Shown one piece after another: positions 28 through 53,152 of a stretch of 64,000 nucleotides of DNA. The stretch is from Pontibacter sp. G13 (GTDB lineage Bacteria; Bacteroidota; Bacteroidia; J057). Below the pieces are notes generated by a model that was not told the origin of the DNA, did not search any database, and worked only from the letters and a program-made list of their open reading frames with translations. A program made the position numbers and the translations under genes. The DNA lies in NCBI RefSeq assembly GCF_031851795.1, contig NZ_CP134696.1, positions 2,341,001 through 2,405,000 of the forward strand. The letters are read 5' to 3'. Each line of letters starts with the position of its first letter. Position 1 is the first letter of the stretch.

Positions 28-1176
28 ACCCACGGGCCAGTGCACTTGCCGAAATCCGCCTCAGGATTTCCGGGCAATGAATTGCCCGGTTGTGGGATGT
101 CGCGCCTACAGTGCTTGCATGGATGCCAAGCGCTAAAATATTGCCTCATCCCGCAAAATTCCGACGCGGTGGCGCCTGTGGGTGGGGGAATTTATGCGGG
201 ATCTCACGCCTCGTGCATGCTGGGGCTCGTCTTTTATCGGGAGAGGAATGAGGGCCATATTACTCCCTTGGCATCCGTCCTGCCCTGTGGGCGCCCTACC
301 GCGGAATTGAGCAGGAGGCGGATTACCCACGGGCCAGTGCACTTGCCGAAATCCGCCTCAGCAGAGTTTGTTTGGGCCGATGCACTTGCCGAAATCCGCC
401 TCAGGATTTCCGGGCAATGAATTGCCCGGTTGTGGGATGTCGCGCCTACAGCGCTTGCATGGATGATGATGAGGCCAGAACGTCTCCGATGCCCAAGCCT
501 CGCACGTCATCTTCGACGGCAATGGGCCCTGGCTTGTGTGTAGGCGCCGATCGGGGATCTCCTGAGCGCGAGCAGGAATGCCAAGCCTACTCCACATGCC
601 CCCGCGGCGATCTCCTTGGATGCCATGCAAGCTCAGGGAGATTCCGGATAGGGCTCCAGCGCGAGGGCCGTGGCAGATGCCCTTCCGGAATGACGTGATG
701 GGGGGATTCTGAGCAGGAGGCGGATTACCCACGGGCCAGTACACTTGCCGAAATCCGCCTCAGGATTTCCGGGCAATGAATTGCCCGGTTGTGGGATGTC
801 GCGCCTACAGCGCTTGGATGGATGCCAAGCGAAAAAATATTGCCTCATCCCGCAAAATTCCGACGCGGTGGCGCCTGTGGGTGGGGGAATTTATGCGGGA
901 TCTCACGCTTTGTGCATGCTAGGGCTTGTCTTTTTTCAGGAGCGGAATGAGGGCCATGTTTCTCCCTTGGCATCCATCCTGCCCTGCGGGCGCCCAATCC
1001 TTAGCAGGAGCCGGATTACCCACGGGCCAGTGCACTTGTCGAAATCCGCCTCAGCAGAGTTTGTTTGGGCCGATGCACTTGCCGAAATCCGCCTCAGATT
1101 TCCGGGCAATGAATTGCCCGGTTGTGGAATGTCGCGCCTACAGCGCTTGGATGTTTGAAAGCGCTGTAGGCGCGAC
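28..1176. repeat. Tandemly duplicated hairpin-rich non-coding module
   Basis: A first unit (from about 28, beginning ACCCACGGGCCAGTGCACTT) recurs at about 726, and a second unit (from about 325, carrying GCAGAGTTTGTTTGGGCCG) recurs at about 1018. A block of roughly 0.7 kb is therefore present twice. Each unit carries GAAATCC/GGATTTC, then the perfect stem CCGGGCAA/TTGCCCGG with loop TGAA, then TGTCGCGCCTACAGCGCTTG or a close variant. Open frames here run across the repeats and have no recognisable domain, so I read the block as non-coding. The function is unknown. It may be a decayed repeat array or the edge of an accessory insertion. Confidence 0.75.
1131..1176. repeat. 18-bp perfect inverted repeat ending the module
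   Basis: The arms 1131-1148 (GTCGCGCCTACAGCGCTT) and 1159-1176 are exact reverse complements around a 10-base spacer. The left arm is the conserved tail of the repeat module. Only this last copy has gained a full complementary arm, so this is the probable right boundary of the array. Confidence 0.8.
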
Positions 1177-1207
1177 ACCTCGCAGGCATGGGTTTCCAAC
1201 CCTTGAC

Positions 1208-1397
1208 CTCGTGCGGATGGCTTGCGGCGGCGCGAAGTGCCTGGAGTGGCCGACCTTCGGGAGGAGTCTCGCATCTGGGGGCGGCGATCTATCGCCCCCA
1301 GATGCGAGACCGAGCGCCAGCGAGCACGGAAGGGACTGACCTGCCGACTCCTGATGCCAAGAAAGGAAATCCATGCCCAGATCGGCAGGGCGCGCCC
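1208..1397 (-). repeat. Dispersed structured repeat R1
   Basis: One of six related elements in the window, read on the minus strand. The outer stem pairs CGCGCC at 1391-1396 with GGCGCG at 1229-1234. A second stem pairs 1340-1347 with 1382-1389 (CCTGCCGA/TCGGCAGG). A third is a perfect 18-bp inverted repeat, 1266-1283 with 1293-1310. The conserved single-stranded part includes CTTCCGTGCTCGCTGGCGCT on the minus strand. It lies about 140 bp past the stop codon of the DEH reductase. No coding capacity is seen. The stretch 1398-1535 shows nothing else. Confidence 0.75.
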
Positions 1398-1535
1398 TAC
1401 TCTCCCAAAACAATCATCCCGGAAACCTACACTTGCAAAGCCGTGCAGATCTCCGGGAAAGCGTTCATCATGATCACGCATGATGAATCCTTAGATACCC
1501 GTATATAATCGGTATGAGTGCGTTACCTAATAGGC

Positions 1536-21635: not shown

Positions 21636-21820
21636 TCCCTGTGCGGCTGGCTGGTGGGGCGTGAGCCGACAGGAGTGTGAGGCGCAGCCGAAGTCCCGGA
21701 GGCACGTAGGGACCGAGCCCTGGATCTTGGTCCGGGGCAGGCGGCGAGCACGAAAGGTGGCGACCCTGCGGCCATGATGCCGAGAGGGATTCAAAGGACA
21801 AGCAAGCGGGGGCACGCCCA
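21636..21820 (-). repeat. Dispersed structured repeat R3
   Basis: A nearly identical, oppositely oriented relative of R4 (46243-46430). The outer stem GGGCGTG/CACGCCC uses 21813-21819 and 21657-21663. The second stem has a mismatch (CCCCGC against GCAGGG), and the CCCCGGA/TCCAGGG hairpin has one G-U type change, suggesting a slowly decaying copy. It lies about 140 bp past the rpoD stop, between two minus-strand genes. Confidence 0.7.
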
Positions 21821-21876
21821 CATCATGCTAAAGCCACTCGAGCAATTCGAGGGAAAAAGCCCAAGACATGCAGCAC

Positions 21877-24597: not shown

Positions 24598-27303
24598 ATG
24601 AACCACTTCTGGGGCGCATTGCTACGTCCACAATCCGCATGGCCTGCCGTCCGGGCCCTGCTTCTGCTGCCTTGGATTTCCTTGCAAGTCATGGCCCAAA
24701 ACTTGGTTCCCAACCATAGCTTTGAATCAGCCACAGCCTACCCCAATGCACAAGGACAATACTATCTTGCCGCCCCCTGGACAAACGCTGGAGTAACTCC
24801 CGCCACTCCAGATTATTTCCATCAAAATGCATGGAACGCCTATGGATTGCCGACCAATGCATTTGGCTTCACTGATCCTCAATCTGGGAATGCTGTCATG
24901 GGATTGGTGGGATATCACGGGGTCAATCCATATCTCCGCGAGTATATCCAGTGCCAGCTGACAAGTCCCATGACGGTCGGGCAAACCTATCAGGTATCAT
25001 TTTGGGTAACGCATGGGGATTCGAGCCAGATTTATGGAACCCAAAGCTCGGGACTCGGGGTTTTGCTATCCACCAGTCCTGTAACCGCTACCGGAGGAAC
25101 TTCCCCCAATGGCACCCCCAACATGATCATCACAGGCAATCCACAATTTGAAATCAACAGTATCATTTGGCATACAAGCTGGACCCAATACTCCTTCCTC
25201 ATTACCCCTAGTTCAGCATTTGACTACCTCACCATCGGGAATTTCAGAGCACCCGGCAATATCCAGACCCAGATGGTCGATCCCACTGTCATCAACGCCA
25301 CCTACTATTATCTCGACAATATCCAGATCATCCCAGCCCCTCCGCAGGTCTATGGAGATACCATCCTTTGCTTAGGAGATTCTGCCAGACTGTGGGCGAT
25401 CGGAGAGCCTCAAAATGCATGGGCGGATAGCCTCGATCCCGGTACCATTATTTCCACAAACGATGAGGTTTGGGTACAACCTGACTCATCCACTCGGTAT
25501 TTTTGGTACGGCCCAAATGATACCCTGTCGGTCTGGGTACAGGTACAGGACCCTAGTCTCTACCAGAGCTTTACCTTGGGGACCGACACCGCCCTCTGCG
25601 AGGGAGATACCCTAACCCTTTCGGTGGATCTCCCGACTTCCTTTACTGTTTGGCAAAGCCAATATCCCGACTCGATATTCTGGGTGGCTGATACAGGCGT
25701 CTACTGGGTGGATTATGCATCGGAATGCGGGTTGTACTCGGATACCCTCCATGTGCATTTCACTTCTGAACCTATCATGGATTTGGGGCCAGATACCCTA
25801 ATCTGCACTGGAGCTCCTTGGGTCCTGGATGTCTCCTATCCCCATGCTACCTACGAATGGCAAGATGGTTCTCATACGCCCCAAATGATCGTATCAAACT
25901 CAGGTACCTACCATGCCACCCTCACCGATCATTGCGGCCAAACCGCCAGCGATACGATTGCAATCGAATATCAATATCCTCCTCAATTCGAGCTTGGCAA
26001 TGACACCTCCATCTGCCCGGGGACCGTATTGACGTTGGAAGTTCCAGCAGATCAGGGCACGATCCTTTGGCAGGACAGTTCCGATGCGGCAACATTCGCA
26101 GTTGAAAATCCGGGGCAATATTGGGTGCGGATTCAAAATGCCTGCGGAGATTGGCAATCTGATTCGATCAATATCCTGCTAGATCCGATCGGGCCCATTT
26201 TTGAACTACCCGATGACACCCTCCTTTGCGAAGGCCAAACCCTGATGCTGTCGGCTTCCTTCCCCCAATCAACCTATCTATGGCAGGACGGCTCCACCCA
26301 GAACTTTCAGCTCATCTCTCAAGCGGGAATCTACCATCTGACCATTACCGATCGTTGCGGCCAAGAAGGGGTCGATTCTTTGGAGGCAACTTATCTCCCA
26401 AATCCTCATCTGGATTTGGGCAATGACACGGTACTTTGCGTAGGAGATCTCCTGTGGCTGGATGCCTCCTTCGCAGGCGCATCGTATGTGTGGCAAGATC
26501 AATCCACCCAGGCTCAATTCCCGGTAGACACGCCCGGGATCTACGGGGTCTCACTGAATCATTATTGCGGAAGTCTCATGGATACGATCGAGGTTTTTGC
26601 ACCGCCTGTAGCTGCTGAACTTTTAGGACCTGACACGACGATCTGTCCCAATCCGCCACTGGTGCTGGACGTGGGGATGCCATTCGCCCAATACCTCTGG
26701 CAGGATGGTTCGACCTTGCCCGCCCAGACAGTTTTGCAACCGGGGCTTTATACGATTTCTATCCAACACACTTGCGGGACTTATTTGGACACCCAATTCA
26801 TCCAATTTCATCCCTACCCGATCGCCCATCTTGGCACTGATACTTCCCTCTGTCCCGGCGATACGTTGTGGCTCCAGTCGCCTGATTCTGGCGTGACCTA
26901 CGTGTGGCAGGATGGATCTACCGATTCCGTGTTGATGGTGACCCTCCCGGGCGATTACCAAGTGGAAGTATGGAATCAATGCGGAATGCGTGCAGATGGG
27001 ATCAGCATTTGGGAAGCAGATTGCCAATGCCAGATGTTTATACCCAATATATTCACCCCCAATGGCGACCAACTCAATGAGGCATTTCTAGCCAAATCCA
27101 GCTGCCTGCCCCAATCTTTCCAGCTCTCCATTTTCAATCAATGGGGACAACAGGTCTTCTTCTCCAATCAGATGCAGGGGTCTTGGGATGGTAGATTTAG
27201 GGGCATCCCCGTCCCCGAGGGCGTCTATATCTATCGGATCTCCTATCAATTCGAGGACCAACCCAAACACATGCGTTCGGGAAGCATTACGCTCATTCGG
27301 TAG
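24598..27303 (+). CDS. T9SS-secreted Ig-repeat protein with type B sorting domain (paralogue 1)
   Basis: 901 residues. Signal peptide (about 1-34, ending VMAQN). An N-terminal jelly-roll-like domain (about 35-245) is followed by about seven Ig/PKD-like repeats of some 85 residues, each opening LGxDTxxCxGxxLxLD and carrying YxWQDGST. A C-terminal domain from about 820 (NIFTPNGDQLNEAF .. IFNQWGQQVF .. WDGRFRGIPVPEGVYIY) is the gliding-motility-associated CHU_C/type B sorting signal recognised by the type IX system. Probably a cell-surface adhesin or matrix protein. Its last 60 codons and 3' flank are almost identical to those of the next gene. Confidence 0.9.
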   Translation: MNHFWGALLRPQSAWPAVRALLLLPWISLQVMAQNLVPNHSFESATAYPNAQGQYYLAAPWTNAGVTPATPDYFHQNAWNAYGLPTNAFGFTDPQSGNAVMGLVGYHGVNPYLREYIQCQLTSPMTVGQTYQVSFWVTHGDSSQIYGTQSSGLGVLLSTSPVTATGGTSPNGTPNMIITGNPQFEINSIIWHTSWTQYSFLITPSSAFDYLTIGNFRAPGNIQTQMVDPTVINATYYYLDNIQIIPAPPQVYGDTILCLGDSARLWAIGEPQNAWADSLDPGTIISTNDEVWVQPDSSTRYFWYGPNDTLSVWVQVQDPSLYQSFTLGTDTALCEGDTLTLSVDLPTSFTVWQSQYPDSIFWVADTGVYWVDYASECGLYSDTLHVHFTSEPIMDLGPDTLICTGAPWVLDVSYPHATYEWQDGSHTPQMIVSNSGTYHATLTDHCGQTASDTIAIEYQYPPQFELGNDTSICPGTVLTLEVPADQGTILWQDSSDAATFAVENPGQYWVRIQNACGDWQSDSINILLDPIGPIFELPDDTLLCEGQTLMLSASFPQSTYLWQDGSTQNFQLISQAGIYHLTITDRCGQEGVDSLEATYLPNPHLDLGNDTVLCVGDLLWLDASFAGASYVWQDQSTQAQFPVDTPGIYGVSLNHYCGSLMDTIEVFAPPVAAELLGPDTTICPNPPLVLDVGMPFAQYLWQDGSTLPAQTVLQPGLYTISIQHTCGTYLDTQFIQFHPYPIAHLGTDTSLCPGDTLWLQSPDSGVTYVWQDGSTDSVLMVTLPGDYQVEVWNQCGMRADGISIWEADCQCQMFIPNIFTPNGDQLNEAFLAKSSCLPQSFQLSIFNQWGQQVFFSNQMQGSWDGRFRGIPVPEGVYIYRISYQFEDQPKHMRSGSITLIR

Positions 27304-27318
27304 GAGATAGAAACAGCT
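27202..27318. repeat. 117-bp near-identical segment, copy 1
   Basis: Matches 29815-29931 with only three differences, all synonymous, across the end of the sorting domain, the stop codon and 15 bases beyond. The upstream parts of the two genes are far more diverged, which points to gene conversion or strong constraint. Confidence 0.9.
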
Positions 27319-27492: not shown

Positions 27493-29916
27493 ATGAAGCT
27501 ACGCATTGCTTGGGTAACGATTTTGTGGGTATCCATCGGTCCTGCTTGGGGCCAATCATGGATTTCCAATCCTGATTTTGAGACTTACACGACACTTCCA
27601 ACAGGACTTTCTCAACTGACCAATGCCACGGGGTGGTTTTCCCCCATCGGAACTTCTCCTGATTATTTCCATACTTTATCTACCAATCCACTCACCGGAA
27701 TGTCCAACAGTTTCGCCAATTTGGCCCCACAATCGGGGCAAGGAATTGCGGGATTCATTTCCTTCATGTATCACAATGAATATCGAGAATTCATTACGAC
27801 GATCTTTACCAATCCTCTGACGACCGGAGATAAATACGAGCTCTCCTTCTGGATGACCAACGGCAATCCTACGCATGGAGCAAGCTGTAGTATTGATGGA
27901 GTTGGAGCCCTGCTATCGGTCGGGCATCCTCCCGGCAATATGACCCCAATGGTCGGCACGGTACCCATGCCCACCAGCAAGCTCGTCTCCCTTCCCAATC
28001 AGTTTTACAATCCCCAGTGGGAGCAAATCAAGTTGAGATTTCGGGCTGATCAACCCTATACGCATTTGACGGTAGGGAGCTTTTACGGACATGCACTCAT
28101 TGATACTGCTTCTGTCAATCCCGGCATTTGCATCACGACCTACCTATTTGTCGACAATTTCAACTTGGATGTCATTCCCCCGATTACAGGAACCTCCCCA
28201 ATTTGTCCAGAGCAATTGGACACCCTCGTAGCACTCAATTGGTCCGGAAACCTTCGCTGGAGTCTTGACGATTCCTTTCAGACAATCCTATCACAAGACG
28301 ACACCTTGATCGTGGCCCCTTCTCAAACGACTACCTATTGGGTGGCAGATGGTCCAGACACCAATAGTTTTACCGTCGTGGTAGATTCTATTTCGGTAGA
28401 TCTAGGCCCTGATATCCTGTTGTGTCCCAATACCACGGTGGATCTTGCGGTTACCTCAGCTTACTCCTCACTCGTATGGGATGATCAATCTGTTTTACCG
28501 ATCCGGTCCGTGGGCACCCCAGGAGTTTATTGGGTGGATGTCGCGAGCCCGATGTGCACGGCGAGGGACTCCATCGAAGTTTGGACTCCTCCCTTCCCCA
28601 CTGTGGAGTTAGGGCCCGATTCGACGATATGCCCCGGAGATTCGGGCATTTTGATTCCTCTTGCCACCTCAGGCCATCTGTTATGGCAGGATCAATCCAC
28701 CGACTCCCAGTTTTCATTCACAGGAGTTGGGCACTATTGGGTCACCTTGACGGATACTTGTGGAAATCAAGCTTCAGATTCGCTCCTATTTTCCGAAATC
28801 CCTCCCCTAGCCCTAGACCTTGGAGGCGATACCTTGATTTGTCCCGGAACCTCTTGGTTCATTTCTGCCGCTTCTCAGGCCATCGACTATCTTTGGCAAG
28901 ATGGATCTGATGACCAAACCTATCTCATTGATACAGGGGGCCAATATTGGGTCACCCAGTCCGACCAATGCGGGCGAAATATCACCGACTCGATTTGGGT
29001 AGCGGAAGTCGCCATCCCCGACCTGGATTTGGGGCCGGACACTGTGTGGTGCTCAGGGGATACCTTTAGGATTCAGTTTCCGCAAGACTTTCTATCTATC
29101 CGCTGGGAAGATGGCTCCGACGCATTCGACCGGCAACTCACTAAACCGGGTTTATACAGCTTCGAGGCCCAGCATATTTGCCGGGCATTTTCGGATACCT
29201 TGCAGCTTTCCCCGTCTCCTTGGGATGAACCTTGGGTCTCAGTCGATTCAATTTTATGTCCAGAAACACCGTGGACCGTTGACTTGGCGGAGCCTTATTC
29301 AACCTATCTATGGCAGGATGGAACTTCCGATGCAACCTATCAAATCGCCAGAGCCGGAACCTACCTAGTGGAAATCAGCCATCCTTGTGGCAATGCCATC
29401 CATGAATTCCACATGGATATCGACTCCCCTCCAATAGCCGATTTGGGCGATGACCTAGAGATCTGCCCGGGTGATACCCTCTGGCTTTCCAGTCCTCATC
29501 CTGGTGCCACCTACCTGTGGCAAGATGGGGCTACCCATGATCGAATCCCTGTTGTCGAGGCGGGAAGTTATTCATTGCTGGTACAAGATGCCTGCGAAAG
29601 CTCCCTAGATGCTATCGAAGTTTGGGAAGGTGCTTGCGAATGCAATCTGTACATCCCCTCTGCATTTTCGCCCAATTCCGATGCAGTCAACCAGACCTTC
29701 TCCACAAAATCCCAATGCCCGTTTCTATCCTTCCGATTGAACATTTTCAACGCTTGGGGTGGGGTAATTTTTGAGAGCACAGATCCAGACCAATCATGGG
29801 ATGGGGCCTTCCAAGGCATCCCCGTCCCCGAGGGCGTCTATATCTATCGGATCTCCTATCAATTTGAGGACCAACCCAAACACATGCGTTCAGGAAGCAT
29901 TACACTCATTCGGTAG
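27493..29916 (+). CDS. T9SS-secreted Ig-repeat protein with type B sorting domain (paralogue 2)
   Basis: About 807 residues from ATG 27493 (MKLRIAWVTILWVSIGPAWGQS, a good signal peptide); earlier in-frame Met codons at 27406 and 27442 are less likely. It shares the design of paralogue 1: an N-terminal jelly-roll-like domain with NPDFETYTTLPTG, about six LGxDxxxCxG/WQDGS repeats, and a type B C-terminal sorting domain ending KHMRSGSITLIR. The direct arrangement and shared 3' flank show tandem duplication. Same inferred role at the cell surface. Confidence 0.88.
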   Translation: MKLRIAWVTILWVSIGPAWGQSWISNPDFETYTTLPTGLSQLTNATGWFSPIGTSPDYFHTLSTNPLTGMSNSFANLAPQSGQGIAGFISFMYHNEYREFITTIFTNPLTTGDKYELSFWMTNGNPTHGASCSIDGVGALLSVGHPPGNMTPMVGTVPMPTSKLVSLPNQFYNPQWEQIKLRFRADQPYTHLTVGSFYGHALIDTASVNPGICITTYLFVDNFNLDVIPPITGTSPICPEQLDTLVALNWSGNLRWSLDDSFQTILSQDDTLIVAPSQTTTYWVADGPDTNSFTVVVDSISVDLGPDILLCPNTTVDLAVTSAYSSLVWDDQSVLPIRSVGTPGVYWVDVASPMCTARDSIEVWTPPFPTVELGPDSTICPGDSGILIPLATSGHLLWQDQSTDSQFSFTGVGHYWVTLTDTCGNQASDSLLFSEIPPLALDLGGDTLICPGTSWFISAASQAIDYLWQDGSDDQTYLIDTGGQYWVTQSDQCGRNITDSIWVAEVAIPDLDLGPDTVWCSGDTFRIQFPQDFLSIRWEDGSDAFDRQLTKPGLYSFEAQHICRAFSDTLQLSPSPWDEPWVSVDSILCPETPWTVDLAEPYSTYLWQDGTSDATYQIARAGTYLVEISHPCGNAIHEFHMDIDSPPIADLGDDLEICPGDTLWLSSPHPGATYLWQDGATHDRIPVVEAGSYSLLVQDACESSLDAIEVWEGACECNLYIPSAFSPNSDAVNQTFSTKSQCPFLSFRLNIFNAWGGVIFESTDPDQSWDGAFQGIPVPEGVYIYRISYQFEDQPKHMRSGSITLIR

Positions 29917-29931
29917 GAGATAGAAACAGCT
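29815..29931. repeat. 117-bp near-identical segment, copy 2
   Basis: Partner of 27202-27318 (three mismatches in 117 bp). It encodes the identical C-terminal strands of the sorting domain. Confidence 0.9.
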
Positions 29932-30038
29932 TGAAGGCCAGAAAAGCCATCCGGAGATTCCTCCAATTCCCGAAGCATCTCCTTGCCTTTTTCTGTAGGG
30001 AGGTCTCTTGTGGACCCCCGAAAGAAAAAGAAGCATCA

Positions 30039-30229
30039 TTTGGGCGTGCCCCAGCGAGGGAGCGGCCATTCCTCTCCGGGCATTTCATTCGCTGGGTCTG
30101 GCCCTTCCGTGCTCGCTGGCGCTCGGTCGGGGATCAGGAGGCGAGATATCGCCGCCTCCTGATCCCCGACTCCTCCTGACGGAGGCCACTTCAGGCCCAT
30201 CACGCCGCGGCAAGCCATCCGCACATCGA
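30039..30229 (+). repeat. Dispersed structured repeat R2
   Basis: Outer stem GGCGTG (30043-30048) with CACGCC (30201-30206). Second stem CCCAGCGA (30050-30057) with TCGCTGGG (30089-30096). Third stem is a perfect 18-bp inverted repeat, 30126-30143 with 30153-30170. It ends GCAAGCCATCCGCACATCG, shared in part with R1 and R6. It fills the gap between two convergent genes and ends about 10 bp from the stop of the next one. Confidence 0.8.
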
Positions 30230-33045: not shown

Positions 33046-33418
33046 CTTATTTAAGTTTTCCGCCATTTTCTTAAATAAGACCATTCCTTATTTAAACCCG
33101 TGAAACTTAGCCAATCCCTTATTTAAAAATTTGACCATTTCCTTAAATAAGACCATTCCTTATTTAACCCCTTGAAACTTAGCCAATCCCTTATTTAAAA
33201 ATTTGACCATTTCCTTAAATAAGAATTCCGCTTATTTAAATTTTTTACCATTTCCTTAAATAAGACCATTCCTTATTTAACCCCATGAAACTTAGCCAAT
33301 CCCTTATTTAAAAATTTGTCCATTCCCTTAAATAAGAATCCCGCTTATTTAAACTTATTGCCATTTTCTTAAATAGCACTTCTCTTTAATTACATTATTC
33401 CCGTATTTATTAAATAAG
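33046..33418. repeat. Phased array of 16 CTTATTTAA/TTAAATAAG sites upstream of fic
   Basis: Nine forward sites start at 33046, 33087, 33118, 33159, 33190, 33231, 33272, 33303 and 33344. Seven reverse sites start at 33070, 33142, 33214, 33255, 33327, 33368 (truncated) and 33410. Forward spacings are 41 or 31 bp, and reverse spacings are 72, 41 or 42 bp. A reverse site is always followed by a forward site 17 bp later. Between sites the text is also repeated (TGAAACTTAGCCAATCC three times). It ends 27 bp before the fic start codon. Confidence 0.9.
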
Positions 33419-46092: not shown

Positions 46093-46242
46093 GAGAAATT
46101 GTGAGATGATGGGTGAAATGATCCATCTAATCTCCCCATTATTTCTCGATGAAAAACACACAGATTGGCGCAGGTCCAACACGATTTGGGGGAAATCTAG
46201 CCTGCCGAGGGAGAGAAAAGATCTGGAGAAGCTTGAGCATCA

Positions 46243-46430
46243 TTTGGGCGTGACCCCGCGTGCTTGGCCTTTGAATCTCTCTTGGCATCATGGCTGCGGG
46301 GTCGCCACCTTCCGTGCTCGCCGCCTGCCCCGGACCAAGATCCGGGGCTCGGTCCCTCCGTGCCTCCGGGACTTCGGCTGCGCCTCACACTCCAGTCGGC
46401 TCACGCCCCACCAACCAGCCGCACAGGGAG
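46243..46430 (+). repeat. Dispersed structured repeat R4
   Basis: Outer stem GGGCGTGA (46246-46253) with TCACGCCC (46401-46408). Second stem CCCCGC with GCGGGG (46254-46259 and 46296-46301). An inner perfect hairpin GCCCCGGA/TCCGGGGC follows CTTCCGTGCTCGC. A GTCCC/GGGAC stem stands in for the long third stem. Near-identical to R3 on the opposite strand. It abuts R5 in head-to-head orientation. Confidence 0.8.
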
Positions 46431-46443
46431 AAATATTTCGGAA

Positions 46444-46657
46444 GTGCGGTTGGCCTTGCAGGGGCGCAAAGTGCCTGGAGGATTCAGTCGGTGCAAGAGG
46501 TCAACCTCCCCAACTTGCTCCACGCTCCCAATGAACTCAAATACCCAGCCTGAACATGAAGCACCGACCGGAGCGACAGCGGAGTCCGGAAGGGACTGAC
46601 CCGGCGCTCAATGGCCAAGCGTCGCCCAACAGGCCCATTCGCCGGGATGCGCCCAAA
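46444..46657 (-). repeat. Dispersed structured repeat R5
   Basis: Read on the minus strand. The outer stem is GGGCGCA/TGCGCCC (plus-strand 46649-46655 and 46462-46468), that is, both arms changed together relative to R4. Second stem CCCGGCG (46600-46606) with CGCCGGG (46640-46646). Third stem GTCGGTGC with GCACCGAC. It lies 100 bp past the stop of the CsgG-like gene. The open frame 46611-46799 running out of it is not credible. Confidence 0.75.
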
Positions 46658-46756
46658 CACTCCTTTTAGAAATGCCCCTCAAGCAAAAAGTGCCAACCAG
46701 CAGGCCCGAGGACCCGCTGATCAGCACAAATATCTAGGTGGCGCTCAGGCCGGAAA

Positions 46757-52790: not shown

Positions 52791-52935
52791 TCAAAGGTCA
52801 GGTCAATCCTGTCGGAAGGGGCTGCTCCTTGGAGTTGGCCCCTGTTTTTTGGGGATCAGGGAGAATGGAACACCAAGGCTCCACCAGGAGATTCCCCTAC
52901 GGGATAAGTCTCAGATGGAATTGTGTTTGGAAGGT

Positions 52936-53152
52936 TTGGGCGTGCCCCGGCAGGCTTGGGAGCAGGTTCCTGCTTGGGTAGGAGCGACGCCGGGTCAGGT
53001 GCCTATGGGCTACGCGGTCGCTTCGGTCGGAGGAGGCTGGACGCCGCCGTTCATGTTTTGATCCAAAACTTCTCGTGTCTCCCAGATGATCCCATCCATC
53101 TCTCCGACTACCCCTTCGGCCCCTTCACGCCGCACTTGCCAGCCGCACATCG
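52936..53152 (+). repeat. Dispersed structured repeat R6
   Basis: Outer stem GGCGTG (52939-52944) with CACGCC (53126-53131). Second stem CCCGGC with GCCGGG near 52946-52951 and 52991-52996. Third stem GTCGGAG with CTCCGAC near 53026-53032 and 53102-53108. It ends AGCCGCACATCG, as does R2. It lies between the convergent VOC and susD genes. Confidence 0.7.

Follow-up and report, generated by a model that had tools for sequence, protein, structure and literature searches.

Branched, covarying repeats of Pontibacter sp. G13 form a large family, probably of passenger mobile DNA elements related to Flavo-1

The repeats of the window and their fold

The window (the whole stretch of 64,000 nt from Pontibacter sp. 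G13 that was analyzed) contains six structured repeats, R1 to R6. A covariance model made from 27 copies of the same genome (model R1, distinct from the repeat of that name), with R1 and R2 in the seed and R3 to R6 outside it, matched all six copies as a common fold (E 6.8e-37 to 6.1e-21) and retrieved no further matches in the window, so that the six repeats of shared layout described in the original prediction are all present at their places. In the canonical reading the plus strand carries R4, R2, and R6 and the minus strand R1, R3, and R5, so an alignment of the six copies as given fails. The repeats, and the parts of R4 as read from its sequence, are:

1207–1404, minus strand: R1, whole repeat (model R1, 128 bits; in the seed)
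21637–21826, minus strand: R3, whole repeat (model R1; 91% identity to R4 over 211 nt)
30035–30228, plus strand: R2, whole repeat, with a perfect long hairpin in the variable arm (model R1, 138.3 bits; in the seed)
46239–46428, plus strand: R4, whole repeat (model R1 boundaries, 144.1 bits, E 6.8e-37)
46246–46253, plus strand: R4, outer stem P1, 5′ arm GGGCGTGA
46254–46301, plus strand: R4, side hairpin P2, CCCCGCG / TGCGGGG, with a variable loop
46304–46306, plus strand: R4, helix P3, first 5′ pairs GCC after the conserved TC
46351–46373, plus strand: R4, variable arm GGTCCC..GGGACT; the loop length varies among copies
46398–46400, plus strand: R4, helix P3, 3′ arm GGC
46401–46408, plus strand: R4, outer stem P1, 3′ arm TCACGCCC
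46415–46424, plus strand: R4, conserved tail CCAGCCGCAC, the 3′ end of the unit (information content, 75 copies)
46440–46661, minus strand: R5, whole repeat (model R1, 83.6 bits, E 6.1e-21)
52931–53152, plus strand: R6, whole repeat (model R1, 89.8 bits, E 1.4e-22)

The unit starts near ATGATTT, followed by GGGCGTG (the 5′ arm of P1), hairpin P2 (consensus CCCnGCG/CGCnGGG, with a variable loop), TC and helix P3; next come a short internal loop accompanied by one more helix, then two small hairpins, one on either side of the GGTC..GACT arm, whose loop differs in length from copy to copy; the 3′ arms and the conserved tail complete the unit. The CTTCC..GCTCGC text follows the second stem and precedes the GGTC..GACT stem, as in the layout first described. 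The three-helix core consists of P1, P2, and P3, and it is this part that is conserved in other genera. The boundaries originally drawn have to be moved: the conserved unit actually reaches from about ATGATTT, ahead of GGGCG, through CCAGCCGCAC, beyond the outer stem, and among 75 copies the information content is at background level just outside it, with both ends sharp.

The covarying stems of the original prediction were borne out. RNAalifold detected compensatory change at 19 of 32 pairs in 27 copies and, among 75 copies from the same genome, both sides had changed at 26 of the 32 base pairs. In this larger set the doubly changed cells numbered 406, compared with 102.8 ± 9.4 in shuffled alignments and at most 79 with slid partners, and 93.9% of the cells were paired, against 74.7% and at most 48.5%, respectively; fitting to the model biases such alignments towards structure, and the copies are mutually related, but the excess over the slid versions is very large. 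None of 500 shuffles reached the observed value on any covariation measure. By helix, 99.8% of the cells were paired in P1 and 98.3% in P2, with double changes at 4/6 and 5/7 pairs, while P3 was doubly changed at all six of its pairs. Likewise, 75 matches from other genomes and viral contigs, also aligned by fitting to the model, contained 162 doubly changed cells vs. 31 after shuffling. That the fold of this repeat family is constrained is thus strongly supported; that it is a selected fold, as was first argued, is not proven, because arms copied from one another would likewise give matched changes.

Abundance, siting and mobility

The family is not one of six, as it had first appeared. BLAST retrieved more than 40 copies from the same genome, and the covariance model at least 150 full-length matches; 138 complete copies in 2.39 Mb (76 on one strand and 62 on the other) amount to 58 per Mb and, by extrapolation to the 7.67 Mb genome, to about 440 copies. 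Contig C3, of 92.9 kb, holds at least five. Units are 154–354 nt long, most of them 158–232 nt.

The counts on siting are approximate, since the gene calls come from a simple hexamer script. None of the first 75 copies overlapped a predicted gene, and 5 of 138 did so by more than 40 nt. Divergent spacers, which contain promoters, are avoided (6/137 vs. 240/1114, p 9e-8) and convergent spacers are favoured (56/137 vs. 189/1114). A terminator-like hairpin on the same strand precedes 32 of 75 copies, mostly by 9–25 nt, and one on the opposite strand follows 23 of 75, both counts being given without a background set. An apparent co-direction with the upstream gene (31:15 in the first 74 copies) decreased in a larger sample to 44:31 among tandem neighbours, which is not a significant bias (p 0.17), and no replication-strand bias was found among the copies of this genome. 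Adjacent copies within 150 bp are arranged tail to tail in 6/6 pairs, including R4–R5, where 11 nt separate the model ends. All six repeats of the window had been placed within about 140 bp of a gene 3′ end; this holds for five, whereas R4 lies 57 bp from a start codon and 329 bp from the next stop and is near a gene end only as part of the R4–R5 pair.

Several comparisons indicate that the repeats move. R3 and R4 are highly identical while their flanks are unrelated, and pairs on contigs C1 and C3 likewise share only the element. All six pairs exceeding 90% in identity times coverage have their members within 100 kb of each other, vs. 8.6% of all pairs; this clustering of near-identical copies, several of them within one repeat-rich region, is suggestive only. 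An element follows a gene for an RF-1-domain protein in two Flavobacterium species, with none beside the orthologue in other species of the genus among the matches listed, and one genome (G471) has no element at all. Similarly, the phage gene ahead of the element in L287 is 71% identical to a relative in L414, where no element follows. The best-scoring element of four congeneric species (L365, L367, L391, and L392) sits downstream of an aldehyde dehydrogenase gene, and three of the four have it no more than a few nt from the stop codon, a position suited to comparing orthologous loci.

Searches for exact empty sites, paralogous ones included, recovered none, and there was no target-site duplication (best z 3.1 over around 700 combinations of offset and length). 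No ORF was found within the 138 complete copies from the 2.39 Mb; in the same 2.39 Mb, separate searches with the 5′ and 3′ halves yielded no ORF-bearing version, the largest gap within an element being 226 nt, and no autonomous element with the same ends. As this covers about 2.4 of 7.67 Mb, a rare copy bearing an ORF may have escaped detection. A 1.3 kb gap considered as a candidate ORF-bearing element proved to be two near-identical elements flanking one gene. At G000:C1:273337–274774, two near-identical elements in direct repeat surround a single gene, which they could in principle move or duplicate. With dispersed copies, sharp ends, unrelated flanks and no ORF, the family has the characters of a MITE or other non-autonomous transposon, and its mobility is well supported.

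The convergent spacers enriched in copies, the promoters that are mostly free of them and the tail-to-tail pairs would also suit a useful, host-selected chromosomal element acting between transcription units in the manner of BIMEs, on DNA topology, termination or mRNA ends. However, presence at the same gene differs among related genomes, copy number ranges from none to 30 across 14 Flavobacterium genomes against about 440 here, elements occur also in phage genomes, and no U-run follows the fold in either direction, which together make this explanation quite unlikely.

Relatives of the family and known systems

Searching this genome and other Bacteroidota with covariance models, as had been proposed, recovered the copies of the window and found relatives elsewhere. 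With a broader model, relatives with the same three-helix core were detected in at least 49 of 296 sampled Bacteroidota genomes, a lower bound given the strict filters and the few candidates scored; carriers include Schleiferia, Flavobacterium and a Fibrobacter MAG. A pattern search with confirmation by the model gave matches in Schleiferia, the Fibrobacter MAG, Flavobacterium aquicola and one Bacteroidetes MAG, and the remaining pattern matches were mostly due to chance, in GC-rich Actinobacteria. Compact copies are found in viral (phage) contigs, often a few nt past a stop codon and on the same strand, and one of them lies between the genes for a head maturation protease and a major head protein; its position within a head-gene operon implies that some copies are transcribed. 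Nothing convincing was retrieved from a plasmid collection.

The claim that the repeats belong to no known family stands in part. No Rfam family matches the copies of the window. HEARO and IscB omega-RNA elements are structured mobile non-coding elements with ORF-less copies; HEARO gave no match to R4 or R5 even at E 5 and, unlike those elements, the present family has no ORF-bearing copy in 2.39 Mb. Flavo-1 (RF01705) did not match the window, nor R4 or R5 at E 5, nor anything in the genome at E 0.01, with 150 candidates scored. Conversely, among the elements that model R2 retrieved from other genomes and phages, five (L287, L300, L378, L379, and L393) score above the Rfam gathering cut-off for Flavo-1, on the other strand, and the inner domain of Flavo-1, CTTTnCGnTnCAATCTTT..AAAGGATTTnCnCTnCnATC, is common to the relatives from other Bacteroidota. 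This comparison comprised two Flavo-1 copies aligned with five GGGCGT-type elements, and for the window copies sequence alone does not establish the domain. A further similarity is the high copy number in Flavobacterium. Nevertheless, the two Flavo-1 copies compared lack the P1–P2 module and have P3 in reversed polarity, and in Flavobacterium the listed matches of Flavo-1 and of model R2 do not coincide. Since some relatives overlap Flavo-1 and share its inner domain, the family of the window is a divergent branch of a known, unexplained kind: a P1–P2-bearing offshoot of a superfamily in which Flavo-1 is the one named member encountered here. Weinberg et al. (2010, PMC2864571) put Flavo-1 forward as an RNA that lacks a cis-regulatory role; by other published data (PMC9723704) it occurs indistinctly sense or antisense to transcripts, often outside them.

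The family resembles REP, REPIN and BIME sequences, which RAYT mobilises, in its hundreds of extragenic palindromic units, inverted pairs and absence of an ORF. REPs, however, are 20–40 bp long and carry a GTAG or CGTC tag (PMC3733652), whereas our units are not short tagged palindromes but branched structures of 154–354 nt, typically around 160–230 nt, and do not occur at the Y1 genes of the genome. A link to RAYT (Y1) transposases, which the original prediction suggested looking for, was not found: the genome has two such genes (PF01797), with no copy of the family within 1.5 kb and each flanked by a different repeat. BOX, RUP, and other MITEs are likewise non-autonomous folded intergenic repeats with mutually paired ends and modular length (PMC3049150); the present family differs from them by the lack of target duplication, by its distribution across the phylum and in phages, and by complementary changes in almost every stem. 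A link to the 23S rRNA intervening-sequence/four-helix-bundle carrier was not found either: the element core appeared in none of the 30 best PF05635 loci of the class; no PF05635 gene was found in this genome, although the control genomes were silent too.

Other repeats were observed along the way. Acido-Lenti-1 (RF01687) scores on tandem repeats near the beginning of the window (410–455, 769–814, and 1102–1147) and on a repeat (L191:2020–2075) that neighbours a Y1/RAYT transposase gene; although an RNA in Rfam, it resembles a REP-type repeat belonging to that transposase. Around the second Y1 gene (L192, around G000:C1:5488564–5488794) lies a different palindromic family, GCGGACTTCCGGACCGTG..CTGCCGCGTAGTCCGCG, with no relation to R1–R6. 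The window also contains an AT-rich array at 33046–33392, with units CTTATTTAA..TTAAATAAG spaced by 72 and 41 nt, and two direct repeats of 138 nt, 91% identical (27181–27318 and 29794–29931), where two neighbouring large genes end; the second gene has a CHU_C type IX secretion signal domain there.

Pairing in DNA or RNA and the nature of the elements

RNA folds normally leave G-U pairs in excess over A-C. Taking tRNAs as the single yardstick, G-U amounted to 0.24% of the P1–P4 cells in the same genome (Fisher p 5e-12) and to 0.43% of the P1–P3 cells in other genomes (p 6e-9), vs. 4.7% in 25 tRNAs of the same genome, that is, 10–20 times more than in the repeats. A-C cells, which are G-T on the opposite strand, were roughly equal to or above G-U in the repeats; the corresponding figure for tRNAs was not relied on because the ARAGORN brackets may hide mismatches. 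Parsimony on the copies of the genome, using a weakly resolved tree from the unpaired columns, counted 132 double transversions and 141 double transitions vs. 16 G-T and 17 A-C steps. The scarcity of G-U without an excess over A-C favours arms that pair as DNA, or that are copied one from the other. The original prediction had rightly left open the choice between RNA and a cruciform; the scarce G-U and the symmetry between strands lean to DNA and suggest that the repeat arms pair at this level, and recognition in DNA is the better of the two readings.

If the repeats were instead transcribed structured RNAs, with a fold kept for protein binding or processing and with copies that are dispersed RNA genes or selfish RNAs, then the strong covariation, the original proposal of Flavo-1 as RNA, and the phage copies within operons, right after stop codons and on the same strand, would be readily understood. 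G-U pairs no more frequent than A-C and so much rarer than in tRNAs, together with many copies beyond terminators, the non-significant orientation among tandem neighbours and the indistinct placement of Flavo-1 relative to transcripts, speak against it, and we regard it as rather improbable. Mutational co-templating, in which one arm is copied from the other in a DNA hairpin (quasi-palindrome correction) without selection on the fold, agrees with double transversions nearly as frequent as double transitions and with single-step intermediates that are rare, G-T and A-C alike. By itself it fails to explain the persistence across the phylum of the three-helix core and its joining bases, and as a sole cause it is highly unlikely, although it could act together with the mobile-DNA explanation.

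We favour, with a probability of around 0.6, the reading that R1–R6 are members of a large, non-autonomous family of mobile DNA, REP- or MITE-like in a broad sense. An enzyme acting in trans would recognise the folded single strand or a cruciform and would insert copies at gene ends, where harm is least, so that the pairing would be under constraint mainly as DNA. The equal placement of Flavo-1 strands relative to transcripts (PMC9723704) counts in favour of this mobile-DNA reading. Counting against it are the failure to find a mobilising enzyme, an exact empty site or a target duplication, the absence of the replication-strand bias of lagging-strand-targeting single-strand transposons, and the phage copy in the head-gene operon, with some copies transcribed. 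Overall, we take the repeat for a probable passenger element of mobile DNA, akin to Flavo-1, and not for an ordinary RNA gene. A more tentative proposal, possible but on balance doubtful, is that of a phylum-wide class of mobile DNA, including Flavo-1, that would move as a branched single-stranded three-helix fold through a novel enzyme, with strict Watson-Crick co-change of the paired arms at the level of DNA.

The mobile-DNA reading would tie an abundant Rfam RNA family of unexplained function to mobile DNA, and some of the small RNAs annotated in Bacteroidota may be repeats. Additionally, a genome with roughly 440 natural variants of the same fold allows a direct comparison of DNA-level and RNA-level constraint, and the mobilising enzyme, to be expected across the phylum and its phages, becomes a concrete search target.
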